64,000 nucleotides of DNA, taken from the NCBI RefSeq assembly GCF_010993775.1, contig NZ_WOTO01000029.1, forward strand, positions 1 to 64,000, in the 5' to 3' direction. This document shows positions 4,235 through 14,915 of this stretch, piece after piece (the first letter of the stretch is position 1; every line of letters begins with the position of its first letter). Under the pieces are notes generated by a model that saw only the letters and a list, made by a program, of their open reading frames with translations, did not search any database and was not told the origin of the DNA. The DNA is from Fodinicola feengrottensis (GTDB lineage Bacteria; Actinomycetota; Actinomycetes; Mycobacteriales; HKI-0501). Both the position numbers and the translations under genes were made by a program.

Positions 4235-5477
4235 TCAGTCCGACACCGGACTCGGGGCGAGATCCTCGACGAACCCGACGACCATGTCAACCTCTTCCTC
4301 GGTGTTGTAGTAGTGCGGGGACAGGCGCAGGCACCAGTCGACGTTCTTGTCGCCGAAGTCGTACTGCGCCAGGCCGCGGAAGCTGAGTGCGGAGTTCACT
4401 TTGCGCTCGTCCATGGCTCGTTTGAACGACTGTGGTCCCCACCCGGCAACGTCGAATGTGACCAGGGCCGCTGGGGTCGGACCGCGGTCGAGGGTGCGTA
4501 CGCCGGGTATCGAGGCCAGTTGGTCACGTAGGTAGGCACCAAGCACCGGTGTGCGCGCCGCGATGCTGTCCAATCCCACGTGCAGCGCGTAGCGCGCGCG
4601 CGGCCGCGCACCCCAGGACCACCGAGTACGGGAACTCCCATTCTTCGAATCGCTGTGCGCTATTCACTGGCCGATATTGCCCGGGCGCCACCCAGCGCGC
4701 GCCGTACATGTCAATGAACAGCGGCTCGTAGCCATCGTTCAGGACGCGGTCGGACACATACAGGAAACCCGAGCCGCGCGGTCCGCGGAGAAACTTGCGG
4801 CAAGTCGCTGTCAGCAGGTCGCAGCCGATCTGGTGCACGTCAATCGGATACTGGCCTACCGACTGGCACGCGTCGACCAGGTAGAGCAGATCCAACTCGC
4901 GGACGTGTCGACCGATAGCCTCAACAGGTTGAACCAGACCTGAGTTAGTGGGTACATGGGTCACCGCGACCAGCCGCGGGCGCAGCTCTCGCATCAGTTT
5001 CACCATCGCTGCTACGTCGACACCACTGCCGTCGGGATGATCAGGCGCGTGCACGACATCCACGCCGAACCGTTTCCGCAGTGACAGGAACGCGATCTGG
5101 TTCGAGATGAAGTCGTTACGAGTGGTGAGGATGACATCCCCGCGCTGAAATGGAATCGCGGACAACGCGTTAGTGTACGCCTGGGTAGCGCTTCCGGCGA
5201 ACGCGATGTTCCGAGCGTGGCAACCGATCAGCTCGGCGATCGACGCATGAAAGTCGCTAACGCGTTCCGCCTGTGCTGCGGCGGCTTCGTAACCGCCTAT
5301 CCGCGACTCAAGGACGAGATGGTCAATCATAGCCTTGAGGACTGGACGTGCGAGCAGCCCGCACCCCGAGTTGTTGAAGTGGATCACCGATTCGCAGCCG
5401 GGAGTGTCCGCCCGCAACGCATTGACGTCCAGAAGTGCTTCCGACATTTGGTTGGTAGCGCTATTCAATGTATTCAC
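4235..5477 (-). CDS. Class V aminotransferase / cysteine-desulfurase-like PLP enzyme (frameshifted)
   Basis: About 413 aa, fold type I PLP enzyme. Seen: HFNNSGCGLLARPVLKAMIDH near the N-terminus, AFAGSATQAYTNALSAI (phosphate loop), VTHVPTNSGLVQPVEAIG, YLVDACQSVGQYPIDV (PLP-N1 Asp), and TATCRKFLRGPRGSGFLYV with the Schiff-base Lys. The C-terminal domain (RTLDRGPTPAALVTFDV, LRLSPHYYNTEEEVD) is in another frame; the break is in a CG-dinucleotide run near 4595. The family includes isopenicillin-N-epimerase-like and EgtE-like C-S lyases, so the reaction cannot be fixed. Upstream of and co-directional with the MocR regulator. Confidence 0.75.
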
Positions 5478-6007: not shown

Positions 6008-6507
6008 TCAACGAGTCGGGGTGAATTTTGCGTAGCAGATAGCGACCGGGTTTTCTGCCGTCGACGTCTTGGACACCGCCACCTTTCCGTCGACCGTGAC
6101 CGTGCATGTAGCCGCTTTTGTGCTCTGGACCAGCAACTGGACGACCTGCAGGGGCTGGTTGGCCGGCCACCTGTACTCGTCGTGCCAAGGTAGCGCGATG
6201 CTGTTTTCGCGGCGTACCAAGCCTGTTCCGGTGGTGTCGTACGCGATGGACACCGGGCCGCTGCCGGTCACGGTCAGCTGGATGTGCCGGGTCGGTGTCG
6301 ACTTTGCCGCCGGCTGGCCACCTTTGGCCGCGGCGTGTCCGGCCTGCCCTTGCTGTTGTTCTGGATTTGCCGGCGCCTGTGCGGCAGCTGGGGAGTTGAT
6401 CCACCGTGGGCGGTGGTGCCGAGCCATCCGGCGACTCCAGCGACGACCACTACTACTGCAGCGCCAGCCGCGATCAGAACCTTGTGCCGTTTAGTCAGGG
6501 TTGTCAT
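6008..6507 (-). CDS. MmpS-like membrane-anchored exported protein (frameshifted)
   Basis: About 165 aa. The N-terminus (MTTLTKRHKVLIAAGAAVVV...) gives one membrane anchor. A Gln/Pro/Ala linker follows. The C-terminal domain (VTGSGPVSIAYDTTGTG, NSIALPWHDEY, AATCTVTVDGKVAVSKTS) matches the MmpS beta-sandwich pattern: V-x-Y-x-x-x-G, LPW, C-x-I/V-x-V-D-G. The frame breaks near 6400; one more C in a CCCC run joins the parts. It is the last gene of the operon, 4 bp after the YeeE stop. MmpS proteins usually partner RND exporters in mycobacteria, but no MmpL is present, so its role here is open. Confidence 0.6.
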
Positions 6508-6511
6508 GACC

Positions 6512-7776
6512 TCAGCAGACCGAGTCGGTGGGTTTTGGGTTGGTCAGGCCGAAAAGCGGCCGCAGTCGGAGGCCGGCGTAGGTGCCGGCGATGGCCAGCA
6601 CACCCCAGAGCCAGCCGTGCAGGCTGAAAGATGCGATGCCAGAGAAGTACGCCCCGATGTTGCAGCCGCCCGCCAGCCTGGCGCCGTAGCCCATCAGAAT
6701 CCCGCCGAGCACCGCGCCGAGCGCGAGTTTCCACGGGATCCGCCGGTGCAGGACAAAAGCGCCGGCAGCCGCGGACGCGATCAGGGCGCCGAGAATGATA
6801 CCGAAATCCATCACGGAGGTTTTGTCCAGCAACACCGAGGAGTCCAGGGCTGCGGCGTTTTTCGGGACCATCCAGTATGCCCAGTGCGCCACATCGACGC
6901 CGAAGAGCTGCAGGATTTTTGAGCCCCACAAGGCGAAGGCGAAGGTGATTCCCCACGGGCTGCCGGAGAAGAACAGGGTGGCGCCGTTGAGTACGGCCAG
7001 CCCGATGGCGCCGACCCACAGTGGCCACGCGCCGCGGATCGCCCGGAGCAGGCCGTGGGTGGTGGGCGGTTCCTCGATGGCCGGCGGCTTCCGGCGCCGC
7101 TCGACCCGGAACGACACGGCGACAATCGCGGCCATCACTACCAGCGAAATGACCAGCGCGCCGGGATAGCCCAGTGGCGTCTTGGCCAGCGAAACGATCG
7201 GGCCGGGTGGGACTGTCTTGGTCCAGAAGGTAAAGTTCGCCGCGCCGAGCACCGAGCCGGCGACAAATCCGGTGAGCGTGATGAGGATCGCGCTCTGCCC
7301 GCTGCCGATCGCGAAACAACGTGCCGGACGCGCAGGAGCCACCAAGTTGCATGCCGACGCCGAAAAGAAAGGCGCCGACCACCACACCGGCGCCGACCGG
7401 CTGCAGCAGCGGCTGTGGGGTCACGCCGAACCCGATGCCGCCGCCGAGCAGGATCGCGAACAGCAGGCAGGCAATGGCCAGCATCAACATGTGCGCGCCA
7501 AAAAGCCCGCGGTTGACCGACCGCCACCAACTGCCGCCAGGCCGAGGTGAAACCGAAACGCGAATGGAAGAGTACGACGCCGAGCAGCAGCCCGAGAGCG
7601 TACAGAATCACCGTCTTCACGCCGCCAACCTGCGAAATCCAGGCGCCCAATGCGACCGTGAGGACGGCGCCGATCGCGACCACCGTCCATTTCACCGGTG
7701 GTGCCTGCGCGGCGGGCCTGGCCGCGCGGCTGGGCAACGTCGGTGCGGCGGGAAGTCCTTCGTCCGCGACCGCCAT
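6512..7776 (-). CDS. YeeE/YedE (TsuA-type) sulfur-compound transporter (two frameshifts)
   Basis: Polytopic inner-membrane protein, about 421 aa, of the family that imports thiosulfate or other reduced sulfur. Seen in order: VALGAWISQVGG, LFHSRFGFTSAWRQL, QLGGSCASGTLF and ARLAGGCNIGAYFSGIAS, the two Cys-containing Gly-rich motifs of the family. The frame changes near 7515 (TTTTT) and 7315 (TTT); removing one T at each restores a continuous protein. The ATG at 7776 has GGAGG 5 nt upstream. It is the third gene of the operon with the SBP56-like protein, implying that sulfur released outside is taken up here. Confidence 0.8.
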
Positions 7777-7801: not shown

Positions 7802-9568
7802 TCAGGATTTTGCCGGCCCGGCGAGCGGGCCGCTGATCGGGACGACGGTGCCGTTCGGCAGCCAGCCGAGTGCCTGGCCGGCCATGTGCATGTCAAACTC
7901 CGCAGGTAAAAACGCCACCGGCGCGGCTGCGTAGAGTTGGGTCGGGTCGGTGTCCGTGCCGGTCTTGCCGGGCTGGCCACCGGCGGCCAGCCAGCTGAGA
8001 TAGCCAGCAGTGGTAGGAAAGTCAGTGTTGAAGCCGTGCGCAAGCGCGGTGGCGTAACGTTCCGGCAGAGATTCGTGTGGGTTGAAGCGCAGCGGCAGGA
8101 TCGAGCCGGCGTTCATGCTCAGGACCGGCGCTTCCAACAGCCACGGCGCCAGCCAGACGCCGGCCGTGTACGCCGTCGACCCCGCTTTTCCGGTGCCGGT
8201 CACCCGAAGTTTCTGGGCGGCCGGTGACCATCCGGATACGACAACCAGTGCGCCCGGCAGGTTTCCGGGCTTTTCCGGCGCAACAGGCAGTTGCAGAGCC
8301 GCGGCCGCCGATCGTACGAGCGATGAAGCGGCCGCCGCTCGTACCGAAGTGTCTGCGACTATCGTGATGGCTGGTACGTGCCGACTTGCCAGGAACGTCA
8401 CCATCGATCGCAGGGAATCCGCGTCCGTGCTGGAAAGCTGGTTGGTTGGGCAAGCCGCGAGCGGCAAGTTTTTCGGCCGGTCATCAGGGTTCCCAGTGCC
8501 GCGCTAGCGCATTCGGCCGCGTCCGGACCGACCGAGCCGGCGATCGTGCGCTGGGAGAAGCCTGCGTCCGCTCGTACCGACGCCTGTTGGGTTTGGTACG
8601 AGAGTGTGACAGTGCTCCGGCCGGCGGGGAGTGTCAGGACCGCCCAGCCGCCAGCGGCACCCGGCTCAGCCTTTGCGTGTACTGGCGAGGAACCGTTCAC
8701 CGCCACCGAAATCTGACCGGCGTGTTCGCCTCCCACGTGGACTATGTTCTTTCCCGGCAATCCAGGGGTTACCAGTACCGGCGTTGCGGAGCCTGCGAGA
8801 TTTACCTCCCTGAGCAAGGGGGTTCCGGGAGTCGGCAACGGATCGGGCGCGGGCAAAGCCGCCAGGCTCGCCCAGGCCGCGATCGCCACAGCCAGGCCGA
8901 TCGCCTGGTATTTCGCTAATTTTTCCGTTTGGAATTGCGCTGCCGTCCCGGCGACAACCAAGACGGTCTCGATGGTGATCGCCCAGCCGTACGATGTCCG
9001 TACCATTCGCTCGTCGAGGCCCAAACCGTTCAATACGGCCAAAGCCAGCGCGCTGACCAGCACGACGGCGGCCGCCACGGTGGACAAGACACTGGTCCGG
9101 GCGGCCACCTCCCGACGATCCGCGGCGGTGGCCGTAGCGGTCGCCGTGCCGAGCCACACCGCCAGCGCGGCGACGTGGGCAAATCCGACCCCACACCACC
9201 GCACCGCCGGCGTCGGCAACCGCCTCCCAAGCGATGACGGCGGCCAGTGCGGCACCGCCGAAAACGCTCCACCTTGACAGGTTTTCAATCGTGGGCAAGG
9301 AAGCGATCACCAGGGTGAAAGCAACCTGCGCCATCGCGATCGGCATGGCGGTGCCATCGCCAACCGAGGTGAGGCAGGCCAGCGCAGCCACTGCGGCCGC
9401 TGCCCATCCGATCCGTCGAGCCACCGGCGACGGTGGGCCGGCCAGTGGACGCACCAGTGCGCCACCGGCCACCGCTGCGGTGCCAAGGACAAGCAGCATC
9501 CGAGCGATAGCGGCCAAAGTGAACTCGCCGGCGCCGGTTGCGCCGGCGTGCGCCATTTCAGTGATCAT
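7802..9568 (-). CDS. CopD-like polytopic membrane protein with large extracytoplasmic C-domain (two frameshifts)
   Basis: About 588 aa. Eight hydrophobic helices occupy roughly residues 15-250, including FAHVAALAVWLGTATA, which resembles the H-x-x-A-x-x-x-W-x-G motif of CopD/PcoD copper-import proteins. A ~330-residue non-membrane part follows (PGKNIVHVGGEHAGQISVAV, YDS-poor, ending HMAGQALGWLPNGTVVPISG) and is unassigned. The frame shifts near 9195 (GGGG, remove G) and 8467 (AAAAA, add A). It begins 3 nt after the stop of the SBP56-like gene, so co-translation is likely. Copper delivery to that protein is an inference from context. Confidence 0.6.
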
Positions 9569-9571
9569 CGG

Positions 9572-11407
9572 CTATTTCAGATCCGCATCCGCGACGACAA
9601 AGAGCTCCGAGTGCGGTTTTGCGTTGCCCAGCTTGCCGTGTGGCCACGACACTCGGTTGAAGTCGACGCAGGGCGTACCTTCGTTCTCGTCCCGGAAACT
9701 GGCGTCCAATGAGAGCGAGCCGGTCTTCGGGTTGGAGTTGACGATGCAGACCTTGTGGTTGCCGTCGATTCCGGTACGGGCCACAAAATAGTTCGACGTG
9801 GCGATCCGGGTGGTCTGGTCGGTCTCGTGGTAGTAACCGTCGCTGCCCAGTGTGAAGTTGTCGAGTGTGCCCCAGTGCGGCCCGCCGTCGATCTTCTGGA
9901 TCCCGGCGATCGTGGGTGCGTCCGACTCGTTCCCGCCGCCGGTGATCTCGTCCGCGGTGTCGATGCTGACCTTCGGGTTGTTGCCAGAAGCCAGCAGCTT
10001 TTCGATGTTGAGCGAAACGACGTAACCGGGAGAGCCAGGATCGCTGGCGCCGTAGATCCCGGCCGGCCGGCCGATCACCGCGTGATACAGGTATTTGTCG
10101 TCGAGACTCGTCTGCACCCAGCCGCCGCCGTCGTTGCCGGCCGGGAACTGGGAAGATCCCAGTGCGGCCGCCGCCGTGGTGTCGTCGAAGACCTCGCGCC
10201 ATTTCGGTTGCGGCGCGGTGATGTCCGGCGTATAGAAAATCGCGCCACCGGACATGGTCTCGGCAAAAGCTCCCTTGTGGTTCGGGAGATTGGTCACGGT
10301 CGTCTCCATGACCGCCCGGTTTTCGTTGCGCAGCGGGTCATCCGGATTGGACCGCGGTCCCTTGGGCAGGTAGTCCACGGATGTGACCCTCGGATGGTTG
10401 CGGTCACTGATGTCCCAGATGCGTACGGTCGGCCGGCGCAGGAACGGCGACGGCGCTTTCACCGGATCCAGAATGATGTTCCGAGGTTCGGCGTAGTCAC
10501 TGGTGACCATCCGGTTCAGGTCCTCGCGTACCTGGATGCCGTGCGGATTGGCGCAGGTGGTGGTCACCGTGGTCGGCAGATCGAGGCACTGGCTGGCATC
10601 CTCGGACTGCCCGGTCGCGGCCGGCGCCTGGGTGAGCACCTTGCCCTGCTGGTCGAAATGCACGACCTCACCGGGGGAGCCGGCGAATCCGTTGCCTATC
10701 GCCGTTTTCCCGTTCGGATAGATGTACGGGCCAGGAACCACCGGCCCGCCCATGTAGGTCCCGTACGCCGTACCGTCCTTCAGCACCCAATAGGCGTCCG
10801 GCACCGAGCCACCCAGCGTCTGGGTCGGCAGGCTGATGCCACTGATGCTGACTTCCGGCAGCTTCTTCACGTCAAAAACATAGGTCGCCGCACTGAAAAG
10901 GCCGCCGGCGTAGATCTTGTCGCCCTTGTGCCAGATGTACTGCATGTGGTGCGGCTCGTTCTCCACCAGCGGCCCGACTGTCACCGTGTTGACCACCTTG
11001 CCGTAGCTTGGCGAGCCCTTGGTGGCGTCGATGACAGCCAGGAAATCCGGACCTGGCAAGGCATCCGTGACCGTCTTGCCGAGGCCGCCGAGGTCAACGG
11101 AAAGCCCGCCGGGGAGGCCTTTCACGGTTTTCACCGCGGTGTCAGCGATATTCTCGTCGCCGGCCCAGACCAGCAGCCATTCCTTGCGTTTGGCACCGCT
11201 GGTCGCGGTGTTCGCCAGCTGGCGGTCCAGATGGTTGGTGACCGAATAGGTCTTGCCGTCCGCGCCCGTCAGGCTCGAGACGAGTTGGTCGATACCGGCA
11301 CCGGAAGCCGCCTGGGTGGCGGGAACAACCAGTGCCGCGACCGACAATCCGAGGACTGCCGCAAAAACAGCAGGCCTTCGTTGTCGGAGGCGAAAAGGTA
11401 GGGGCAT
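9572..11407 (-). CDS. Secreted SBP56 / methanethiol-oxidase-like protein
   Basis: 611 aa and unbroken. The start has Arg-rich n-region, hydrophobic core (AVFAAVLGLSVAALVVPA) and ATQAAS cleavage site, so it is exported by Sec. The selenium-binding-protein-56 family pattern follows: PDFLAVIDATKGSPSYGKVV, ENEPHHMQYIWHKGD, CANPHGIQVREDLNRMVTSDY, RIWDISDRNHP, and HAVIGRPAGIYG. Known bacterial members (MtoX) are periplasmic copper enzymes that turn methanethiol plus O2 into formaldehyde, H2S and H2O2. This copy is longer than the usual ~430-460 aa, so a divergent activity is possible. The start at 11407 has GAGGAG 7 nt upstream. First gene of the operon. Confidence 0.7.
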   Translation of the reverse strand: MPLPFRLRQRRPAVFAAVLGLSVAALVVPATQAASGAGIDQLVSSLTGADGKTYSVTNHLDRQLANTATSGAKRKEWLLVWAGDENIADTAVKTVKGLPGGLSVDLGGLGKTVTDALPGPDFLAVIDATKGSPSYGKVVNTVTVGPLVENEPHHMQYIWHKGDKIYAGGLFSAATYVFDVKKLPEVSISGISLPTQTLGGSVPDAYWVLKDGTAYGTYMGGPVVPGPYIYPNGKTAIGNGFAGSPGEVVHFDQQGKVLTQAPAATGQSEDASQCLDLPTTVTTTCANPHGIQVREDLNRMVTSDYAEPRNIILDPVKAPSPFLRRPTVRIWDISDRNHPRVTSVDYLPKGPRSNPDDPLRNENRAVMETTVTNLPNHKGAFAETMSGGAIFYTPDITAPQPKWREVFDDTTAAAALGSSQFPAGNDGGGWVQTSLDDKYLYHAVIGRPAGIYGASDPGSPGYVVSLNIEKLLASGNNPKVSIDTADEITGGGNESDAPTIAGIQKIDGGPHWGTLDNFTLGSDGYYHETDQTTRIATSNYFVARTGIDGNHKVCIVNSNPKTGSLSLDASFRDENEGTPCVDFNRVSWPHGKLGNAKPHSELFVVADADLK

Positions 11408-12133: not shown

Positions 12134-14694
12134 TCAGCCGAGGGTCACCGTCCACATTCCTCGCCCGTGGGTGGCTGCCAGCACGGCGTTACCGCCAGGC
12201 TGGGTCCGTACGTTGGTCACGGCGACGTTGGGCAGCACGCCAAGCCGGGACCAGCGGGTGGGCGATCGTCGGTCGGCGGTGAACAGGCCGATGTCGGTGC
12301 CAAGGACAAGTTTCCCGCCGGCGATCGCGAGGCCGTCGCCGGGGGCGTCTGGCAGGTTTGCGGTGATGTTGCGCCAGGTCGAGCCGCCGTCGACGGATTC
12401 GAACAGGACACCGATGCCGCCGCCGGGGATCCATCGGCGGGAGTAGCCGTTGTAGACGGCGTAAACGTGGGCGGGGTTGGCGGGGTCGACGGTGAGGCCG
12501 GCTGTAGCGGTTGGGAAGTACGGGTGAGCTGATCCGGTGCCAGCTGCCGCCGTAGTTGGTGTCGATTCCACTGGCGAACGACGGTGAGGGGTTGGCGCCG
12601 CTGTCGACCCATGCCGCGTACGTCACGACACCGCTGACGGCGACCGCGGTGCCGATGTTGTAGCCGCCGGCCGCGTCGGTGCCGAAACTGTGCACGGGGG
12701 TCCAGTCGCAGTTGGTCGCGCAGACTGTATTCCAGCCCTTGACCGTGTCCCAGACCTTGTTGCCCGCCGCCACCCAGTGATTGGCGTTGTGGATATCGGC
12801 TTGGAACGGCGCGATGAACCGGGCGGATGGGTCGCATGCGGTCGCATCTGTGTAGTAGCCGCATTCGGGGCTGATGGTGGTGAACGTGTGGCCGCCGTCG
12901 CTGGTGCGGTACATCGCCAGGTTGGTGTACTCGCCGACTGCCTGCTGACCGTTGGCGGGATTCACCAGGACCATCCCACCGTCCCCGTCCCCGCCCGCAG
13001 GCTCGATGTTCTTGGCGTTACCGGGGAAAAGGGCCGAGGTGCCGTTGTCCTGCAGGCCGCCCCAGTACGCCGTCCCGTGGCCGGATCGCCCGGCGGCGGC
13101 GTCGTAGTATTGCAGCGTCCGTACGGTGTCGTTCAGATCCACCCAGCTGCCGTATCCGGTCACCGACATCGGGCGCCGATAGGTGCCGCCGTCGTTGCCG
13201 ATCACCACCTGCCGGTCGGCGGTCAGCGCCAGCGCGCGTGCTGGGTGGGGGGGGTGGGTGGCCGGCGGGCACGCTGCGGTGCCGCAGGTCAGGCCGTAGT
13301 TCCAGTATTGGCTGGCGGTCTGGAATGTGCTGCCGCCGTCGTTGGTCTGGAAGACCTCCTCCAGGCTGACGTAGGCGTGCATCGGGGTTTTTGGGGTCCA
13401 CCGCGAGAACCTGGTTGTACCAGGACTGAATCCCGACGTGGTAGCCCGCCAGGTTCTGCAGTGCGGAGCCGGACGCCCCGAGTGAGTCCGAGTCGGCGAT
13501 CCGGGTGTACGGACCCGCCGGATTTCCTGACGCGGAAGCGAAAACGCCTTGCAGGTTGGTGTCGTCGTTAGCCAGGAGCTTCTTTGGGGACTGGACGATC
13601 GCGTAAAGCCGCGACCCGTCCGCCGCGTACGCCAAGGTCGTACGACCGATGTCGGTGGCGTCAATGTCCCCGGCTGGGGTGACGCGCTGGAAGGACCCCG
13701 GTCCGCCGCCGGTGGTGGACAGGTAGAACCCGTTGTACGCGGTGCCGTTGCGCCACCCCAGCACGGCCAGTACGGACTGGCCGCCGGTTCCCGGCCGGAT
13801 GGCCACGTCGGAAATGAACGAGGTGTCGTACGGGGAACCCGTCGGGTTCGGATCCGGCTTGAGCACTAGCGTCCAGCCACCGTTGCTGGTGTGGAGCGAA
13901 TGCCGGTACAAGCCCTGATTGGTGGCCGCGTACACCTGCCCCTGACCATCGGCGACGAGCCGGAACGTCTGGTGATCCAGCAACTCGTCGCCGCCGACGC
14001 GGGTGAAACTGCTGCGGCCTCCGTTGGTTGAGCGGTACACACCCGTTCCGAGGTACGAGTCGCTGCTGGTGTTCGACTCGCCGGTTCCCACCCAGAGCGA
14101 ATGATCCGGGCCGACCAGCAGCGCGCCGATCGACAGTGTGTTCTGGCCGTCCCAGATGGAATGCCAGGTCTGGCCGCGGTCGGTCGACTTCCACACGCCA
14201 CCGTCAGCTGCGCCCTGGTAGTAGGTGTTCCCATCGACCGCAAGAGCTGTCGTACGTCCAGCGACCGTACGAAAACCCGCGCCGTCGTTGGACCAGGTGG
14301 GATCGGTGTATCCGGCCGGCTCAGCATCCAGCGGCTGCCCGGTGACCTCGCTCGCACGGCCACGTGCCAGCGGAAGTGCCGCCGCCTGACCGCGCGCGGC
14401 GACCAGCGCAGCTGCCGACACCGAGTCACCCGGAGCGCTGCGCTGACCGGCGTACTGCTCCGCCTGATCGGCAACCTCCAGAGCGTCGCCCTCGCCCTCA
14501 CCGCGCTCCAGCGGTCTCAGCCCCGACGACCGAGCGTGCTGCTGCACCTGGATTTTCGCCACCCCACGCAACGGATCCGGGTGGGGAGGCGCCGCCGAGG
14601 CAGGTGTGGTGAGCGCCACGGTGGTCACCGCCACCACTGCCAGGGCCACTGCCGGGCGAGTGAAGATCGACTTGTTGGATAACGCGAACAACAT
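12134..14694 (-). CDS. Secreted BNR/Asp-box beta-propeller protein, sortilin/VPS10-like (two frameshifts)
   Basis: About 853 aa. Signal peptide at the start (PAVALAVVAVTTVALTTPASA, cut before AAPP). Repeated Asp-boxes mark propeller blades: KSTDRGQTWHS, STNGGRSSF, QTNDGGSTFQ, RTSDGGHTFT, ESVDGGSTWRN; the end is ATHGRGMWTVTLG, typical of sialidase-like/VPS10-like propellers. Catalytic residues of a sialidase are not evident, so a binding or glycan-related role outside the cell is likely. Frame breaks at ~13390 (run CCCC) and ~12530 (run CCC); removing one C at each restores the family reading. ATG 14694 has AAGGGA upstream. Confidence 0.7.
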
Positions 14695-14915
14695 CGCCGC
14701 ACCGATCCCTTCGCACCGCACCTCGGCGCAGCCGAATGCTGGCACAGCACCGCACAGCCGTCCACGGTTTGCCAATAAAAAAAAAACGGGAAAGGTCCGT
14801 CGCAATCGAACAAACAGCCAAATCGATCACAAAACGCCTTATGGCGAGGTTAAATCCTTGCATTGCTAACGAACCGGTGACGACGATCGCGGTGACGCCC
14901 GCGCGCTGACGCCGA

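Follow-up and report, generated by a model that had tools for sequence, protein, structure and literature searches.

An exported SBP56-superfamily protein and its CopC-CopD-related partner form a conserved gene pair in sulfur-linked actinobacterial loci

In the window, a stretch of 64,000 nucleotides of Fodinicola feengrottensis DNA, a minus-strand operon encodes an exported protein of the SBP56 fold superfamily (SBP56L) together with a membrane partner that appears to be of CopC-CopD origin, a YeeE/YedE sulfur transporter and an MmpS-like protein. We put it at roughly even chances that SBP56L is an extracytoplasmic, probably copper-dependent oxidase that acts on a small thiol and frees its sulfur for assimilation. 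More tentative is the proposal that it represents a new type of copper-dependent SBP56 enzyme, in which a rearranged histidine site and a CopC-CopD-type/solute-receptor membrane protein couple capture, metallation and sulfur release. The grouping of copper and sulfur functions around an exported SBP56 protein is now better supported than it was from the window sequence alone, and the overall reading is partly supported. The SBP56L/partner module has apparently not been described before, as open-access titles and abstracts on SBP56 with CopC/CopD, methanethiol oxidase with YeeE, and actinobacterial SBP thiol oxidases contained no description of it.

The operon consists of the following genes:
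9572..11407, minus strand: SBP56L, SBP56-superfamily exported protein; 611 aa, intact ORF, signal peptide at about residues 1-36
7802..9568, minus strand: partner protein with eight TM helices (probably CopD-derived), a beta-sandwich and a PBP-I-like domain; two frameshifts
6512..7776, minus strand: YeeE/YedE sulfur transporter with a PF04143 match; two frameshifts
6008..6507, minus strand: small MmpS-like protein, exported or anchored; frameshift at ~6350-6430

Same-strand gaps of 3 bp (9571-9569), 25 bp (7801-7777) and 4 bp (6511-6508) separate these genes, as the preliminary description had it. The three downstream genes are real, being matched in successive frames by proteins from a congener (G001), but of the four only SBP56L is an intact ORF in the window. 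Specifically, tblastn of the congener's proteins against the window placed frame switches at ~9200 and ~8470 in the partner gene and at ~7490 and ~7315 in the YeeE gene; of the MmpS-like protein just the last two thirds aligned (6352-6011), its start lying in another frame. Because the congener's copies of the three frameshifted genes are open and the window assembly is 74.6% complete by marker genes, assembly or sequencing indels are likelier than decay as their cause. Between the window and the congener, SBP56L shows a dN of 0.067 and a dS of 0.666 (dN/dS ~0.10), and it is therefore under purifying selection. The three frameshifted genes would also fit a decaying operon of which SBP56L is the sole survivor; that gene, however, is intact and constrained, the congener's locus is intact, and the low completeness is what indels spread through the assembly would produce, so that decay seems very improbable. 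A BNR/Asp-box-like repeat protein at 12137-14805 (minus strand) seems to be broken into two reading frames, which again points to assembly indels. Directly downstream of the operon, at 4524-5477 (minus strand), lies a class V aminotransferase gene (110.7 bits), a family that includes cysteine desulfurases too.

SBP56L carries an export signal, and its AlphaFold2 model (mean pLDDT 84) found Sulfolobus SBP56 (2ECE) as its best PDB match in Foldseek, with an E-value of 4.4e-17 that was some five orders of magnitude better than that of the next propeller. The two structures superposed with a VIA Z of 30.1 over 373 residues (2.8 A, 21% identity), a Z similar to that reached by other propellers. In addition, 2ECE was recovered by a sequence profile of the SBP56L family, and hhalign with an SBP56L profile that included diverse members gave 93.3% (E 2.7e-7), as compared with 80.5% for a less diverse alignment; plain phmmer of SBP56L against PDB sequences gave no match. 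The Foldseek margin, the profile match to 2ECE and the hhalign E-value together place the modelled protein in the SBP56 fold superfamily, so that its earlier description as an exported SBP56-type protein holds. Its 611-aa length, which had been called unusual, is the norm of the SBP56L family.

Within the superfamily, SBP56L stands well apart from the canonical members. It scored 24.5 bits against Pfam SBP56 (PF05694) over residues 118-156 only, and its relatives scored 16.4, 19.0 and 21.8 bits, all below the cut-off of 34. Against the MtoX model NF052453 it reached 27.6 bits, far below the equivalog cut-off of 650; given this score and a PHxxH motif that reads PDAYW, orthology to MtoX was rejected, and SBP56L should not be filed under that name. 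In a tree, a long branch with full support separated the family from three canonical SBP56 proteins, and one genome (G156) has both kinds. Species-representative genomes contain no fewer than 169 SBP56L loci, with three copies each in G458, G477, G492 and G519 that differ in partner architecture. NCBI annotates the Streptomyces plasmid copies as 'hypothetical protein', and a search for phage homologues found none.

A comparison of 20 diverse homologues pointed to the following conserved histidines, of which His289, His511 and His599 were matched to canonical positions by eye:
10946..10951, minus strand: His153-His154 in NEPHH, invariant; counterpart of the HH motif of SBP56/MtoX
10541..10543, minus strand: His289 in CANPHG, nearly invariant
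9875..9877, minus strand: His511 in GGPHW, invariant; canonical SBP56 reads GGPQM in the by-eye alignment
9611..9613, minus strand: His599 in AKPHS, invariant

NEPHH aligns to DELHH, and SBP56L thus carries the ELHH motif of the superfamily. The canonical YDFW region sits near His289, the register being approximate in that stretch, and by-eye alignment suggests that His599 is the likely counterpart of MtoX His412 (RAHEMRYPGGD). At the PHxxH position, PHTVH is aligned to PDAYW, so that HxxH is gone, and P203 and D204 are kept across the close clade. The copper of MtoX has been ascribed to H89, H90, H140 and H412 (PMC5739008), and SELENBP1 requires H73, H74, H137, H140, D189 and E252 (PMC10362175); MtoX His140 probably has no counterpart in SBP56L. 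Judged from these alignments, the conserved histidine-rich set of SBP56L differs from the canonical one, and it may bind copper. Because the HxxH motif is required for copper binding and activity in SELENBP1 (PMC10362175), its loss counts against SBP56L being a copper thiol oxidase. Methanethiol oxidation, as first proposed for this operon, is not supported, given the missing HxxH and the failed match to the MtoX model.

MtoX of Hyphomicrobium sp. VS, a periplasmic copper enzyme (PMC5739008), resembles SBP56L in its export, SBP56 propeller, HH motif, C-terminal histidine and copper-linked neighbours. It differs in having 435 rather than 611 aa, in retaining HxxH and in lacking the additional conserved His289 and His511; moreover, its clusters contain SCO1 and MauG, whereas SBP56L has a CopC-CopD-related partner with a PBP-I domain. 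Human SELENBP1, a copper thiol oxidase (PMC10362175), shares with SBP56L the superfamily, the HH pair (73/74) and probably Glu252 (E368 in SBP56L). Unlike SELENBP1, SBP56L has no counterparts of H137/H140 and does not conserve D189 as such, and the human protein is eukaryotic and belongs to no operon. The Sulfolobus tokodaii SBP56 (2ECE), the best solved structural match, shares the beta-propeller, yet it is ~150 residues shorter and has the HxxH motif.

The partner gene directly follows SBP56L in 81 of the 86 loci of the first collections, a count in which a few loci stem from one genome represented twice. Of the five exceptions, four have a contig end no more than 1,015 bp away, which leaves L082 as the single genuine one; four further SBP56L copies (family f99) have no partner. 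Because 81 of 86 loci keep the pair, the pairing is not due to chance. The preliminary description had named conserved neighbourhoods as a check on its proposal: the partner bears this out, and YeeE, discussed below, does so in part.

The model of the congener's partner protein (pLDDT 90.8) comprises eight TM helices, a beta-sandwich at ~251-334 and a C-terminal domain at residues 341-573 that matches type-I periplasmic binding proteins (Z ~15). CydB- and PsrC-type bundles ranked first in a fold comparison of the TM region, but a function of that type was set aside, such bundles matching broadly. Pfam CopD found no match in the window or in the intact close homologues of the partner, the latter giving no Pfam match at all. 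Among other partners, CopD (PF05425) scored 27.9 bits in G002, 21.9 in L144 and 42.0 (over the cut-off) in L158. This last, deep-branch partner also matched CopC (62.9 bits) and Peripla_BP_6 (56.0 bits), all three above their cut-offs, and a second one (L159) matched CopC above (61.6 bits) and CopD just below the cut-off (29.1 bits). The AHP and DDGH motifs of the CopC copper site were seen in four partners. Those of L099 and L100 have an AHP start and a DDGH motif, which we take to be the CopC copper ligands.

In Streptomyces and Nocardioides-type hosts, the partner keeps its soluble part but has one or two TM segments in place of the eight-TM bundle, while the CopC domain is missing from the partners of the window clade. 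On the tree, these states need 8 changes, as compared with 19.7 for shuffled labels; which state is ancestral is uncertain, as the root is, and any choice is a reading of the sequences rather than proof. At first the lack of a Pfam match, the PBP-I domain and the absence of a TM bundle in Streptomyces favoured the view that 'CopD-like' was a misreading, a view dropped once the deep-branch partners proved to be CopC-CopD-Peripla_BP_6 proteins. Because these partners are such fusions, the copper link of the partner appears real in origin. 'CopD-like' therefore seems apt for the eight helices and their ancestry, but is incomplete for a protein with a beta-sandwich and a PBP-I domain as well. Compared with CopC-CopD/YcnJ copper proteins, the deep-branch partners share the Pfam CopC and CopD domains, and the partner differs in its fusion to a type-I periplasmic-binding-protein domain, in the absence of CopC from the window clade and in the absence of the CopD bundle from Streptomyces and Nocardioides. 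With the bundle missing in some hosts and CopC in others, copper delivery by the partner would not be general; the supply of copper through the CopD-like protein, as originally suggested, is not supported for the window clade, whose CopD-like domain is eroded. The copper theme as such is borne out by the deep-branch fusions. A multicopper oxidase gene comes after a partnerless SBP56L paralogue (L150:11071-12570), with a related arrangement in L151, and in Sciscionella marina a stand-alone CopC gene (L044:5053-5568) lies ~1.2 kb upstream of SBP56L.

The YeeE/YedE identity was confirmed by PF04143, which scored 38 bits in the fragment of the window and 236.5 bits in the congener's intact copy. 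Like YeeE/TsuA and SoxT (PMC11073785, PMC11582611), the window protein belongs to PF04143 and has the GGSC and GGCN cysteines. Unlike them, it has two of the three TsuA-type cysteines, the first being replaced by SRFG (as in 47/47 YeeE copies), and a motif search found no TusA/YeeD-like ORF near YeeE. A C-terminal cysteine and the missing first cysteine were considered as operon-specific features and rejected, many unlinked actinobacterial YeeE proteins sharing both. Across actinobacterial YeeE (47 copies, and L185-L196), a terminal cysteine (often TDSVC) is conserved, and of the three TsuA cysteines the first is missing in most, whether linked to SBP56L or not. The 'MmpS-like' label is marginal, with 20.4 bits against MmpS (PF05423) in the window and 19.1 in the congener for a cut-off of 21, and the gene is confined to the window genus and relatives of the Amycolatopsis type.

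In Pseudonocardiales and Nocardioidaceae-type genera, ~45 separate loci have YeeE beside the SBP56L/partner pair. Among 21 relatives, the YeeE family occurs in three genomes only, all of them SBP56L carriers and all at the SBP56L locus. Among 395 genomes of the class, YeeE exceeded the cut-off in 5/15 SBP56L carriers versus 35/380 others, and all five carrier copies lie within 3 kb of SBP56L. The association is frequent, not universal, with several Amycolatopsis loci lacking YeeE. On three of five Streptomyces plasmids, the pair is located between genes for cysC, cysD, a GTP-binding (CysN-like) protein, PAPS reductase, an ABC transporter (annotated as aliphatic sulfonate in two of the three) and sulfite reductase; on a fourth, cysD adjoins the pair, and the fifth has no sulfur genes. 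MBL-rhodanese genes are found upstream of the pair in three lineages (Nocardioides iriomotensis, G630 and G507). Since the gene content around the pair differs between Streptomyces, Nocardioidaceae and Pseudonocardiales, we argue for more than one sulfur link, although these neighbourhoods are largely those of related actinobacteria and partly reflect one inheritance. The sulfur theme, too, thus gains from the recurrence of sulfur genes beside the pair in different backgrounds. No SCO1/SenC or MauG was seen in the SBP56L neighbour clusters or annotated plasmid loci, with HMM scans covering part of the neighbours.

We propose that SBP56L, once exported, would act on the outer side of the cytoplasmic membrane as an SBP56-superfamily oxidase that probably depends on copper. 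It would oxidise and split a small organic thiol, either methanethiol or another volatile thiol like it, to yield sulfane sulfur or sulfide. The CopC-CopD-related partner, with its fused type-I solute-binding domain, may hold SBP56L at the membrane and help to metallate it and/or present its substrate. The released sulfur would then be taken up via YeeE in most Pseudonocardiales-type hosts, pass to MBL-rhodanese enzymes in Nocardioides-type hosts and enter the assimilatory pathway in Streptomyces. Here we infer the copper content, substrate and chemistry of SBP56L, its contact with the partner and import by YeeE. Characterised MTOs reportedly release sulfane sulfur (PMC10936201), which would make rhodanese-type enzymes and YeeE-type importers sensible downstream partners. 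Besides the loss of HxxH, several points speak against this proposal: the MtoX and SBP56 scores far below cut-off, the lack of SCO1/MauG in the loci seen, the patchy presence of CopC and the eight-TM bundle in the partner, the Streptomyces plasmid devoid of sulfur genes and the YeeE-less Amycolatopsis loci.

Some of this evidence can be read differently. The extracellular substrate might instead be a reduced inorganic form of sulfur (sulfide, persulfide or polysulfide), which the module would convert to thiosulfate or sulfane sulfur for import by YeeE without cutting a C-S bond. Thiosulfate import by E. coli YeeE (PMC11073785), sulfur import by SoxT systems (PMC11582611), the upstream MBL-rhodanese genes in three lineages and the absence of the HxxH of thiol-cleaving SBP56 proteins would all agree with this. 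However, the closest characterised enzymes cleave thiols, and the aliphatic-sulfonate ABC transporter and cys genes of Streptomyces fit assimilation rather than sulfide detoxification, leaving chemistry of this kind unlikely, if the strongest competitor to thiol oxidation. Somewhat less likely still, SBP56L could be an extracytoplasmic metal chaperone or store instead of an enzyme, with the partner as a copper importer and the sulfur genes detoxifying copper as sulfide or thiolate. The CopC-CopD kinship of the partner, the zinc-chaperone propeller AztD (6n01) among the Foldseek matches and the multicopper oxidase gene after one SBP56L paralogue point that way, but such a role is hard to square with the YeeE pairing and the Streptomyces sulfate-assimilation genes, and SBP56L persists in several lineages without the CopD bundle.

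The YeeE/YedE family includes selenium-linked members. That the module handles selenium instead of sulfur is nevertheless very improbable, the least favoured of the readings considered: it draws on family names only (selenium binding by SBP56 is discussed in PMC10362175), whereas the recurrent SBP56L neighbours included no recognisable selenium-metabolism gene, and those in Streptomyces are sulfate-assimilation genes.

Actinobacteria dominate many soils. Their use of volatile thiols is little known, and the module bears on it; if SBP56L is a thiol oxidase, current mtoX probes miss part of the methanethiol consumption in soil. Moreover, the loss of HxxH beside other conserved histidines amounts to a natural experiment on the ligands required for SBP56 copper chemistry, and the partner suggests a second maturation route for SBP56 enzymes, besides SCO1/MauG.

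Two kinds of small peptide were also observed near the pair. An exported peptide of ~75 aa with the motif VVDEPDTSxLNNxWTFAPLGVPVxGLxQS occurs at 39 loci in 8 genera (for example L057:10985-11230 and L050:10861-11133), and a second kind (WLLPGLDLGxLLGPTVxxPT) at 22 loci in 4 genera. None of these small secreted peptides of the relatives turned up in G001 or in the window's first 20 kb. In several Amycolatopsis-type genomes (L011, L036, L057), the locus lies between rpoC-like and rpsL-like genes, as assigned from the printed sequence.
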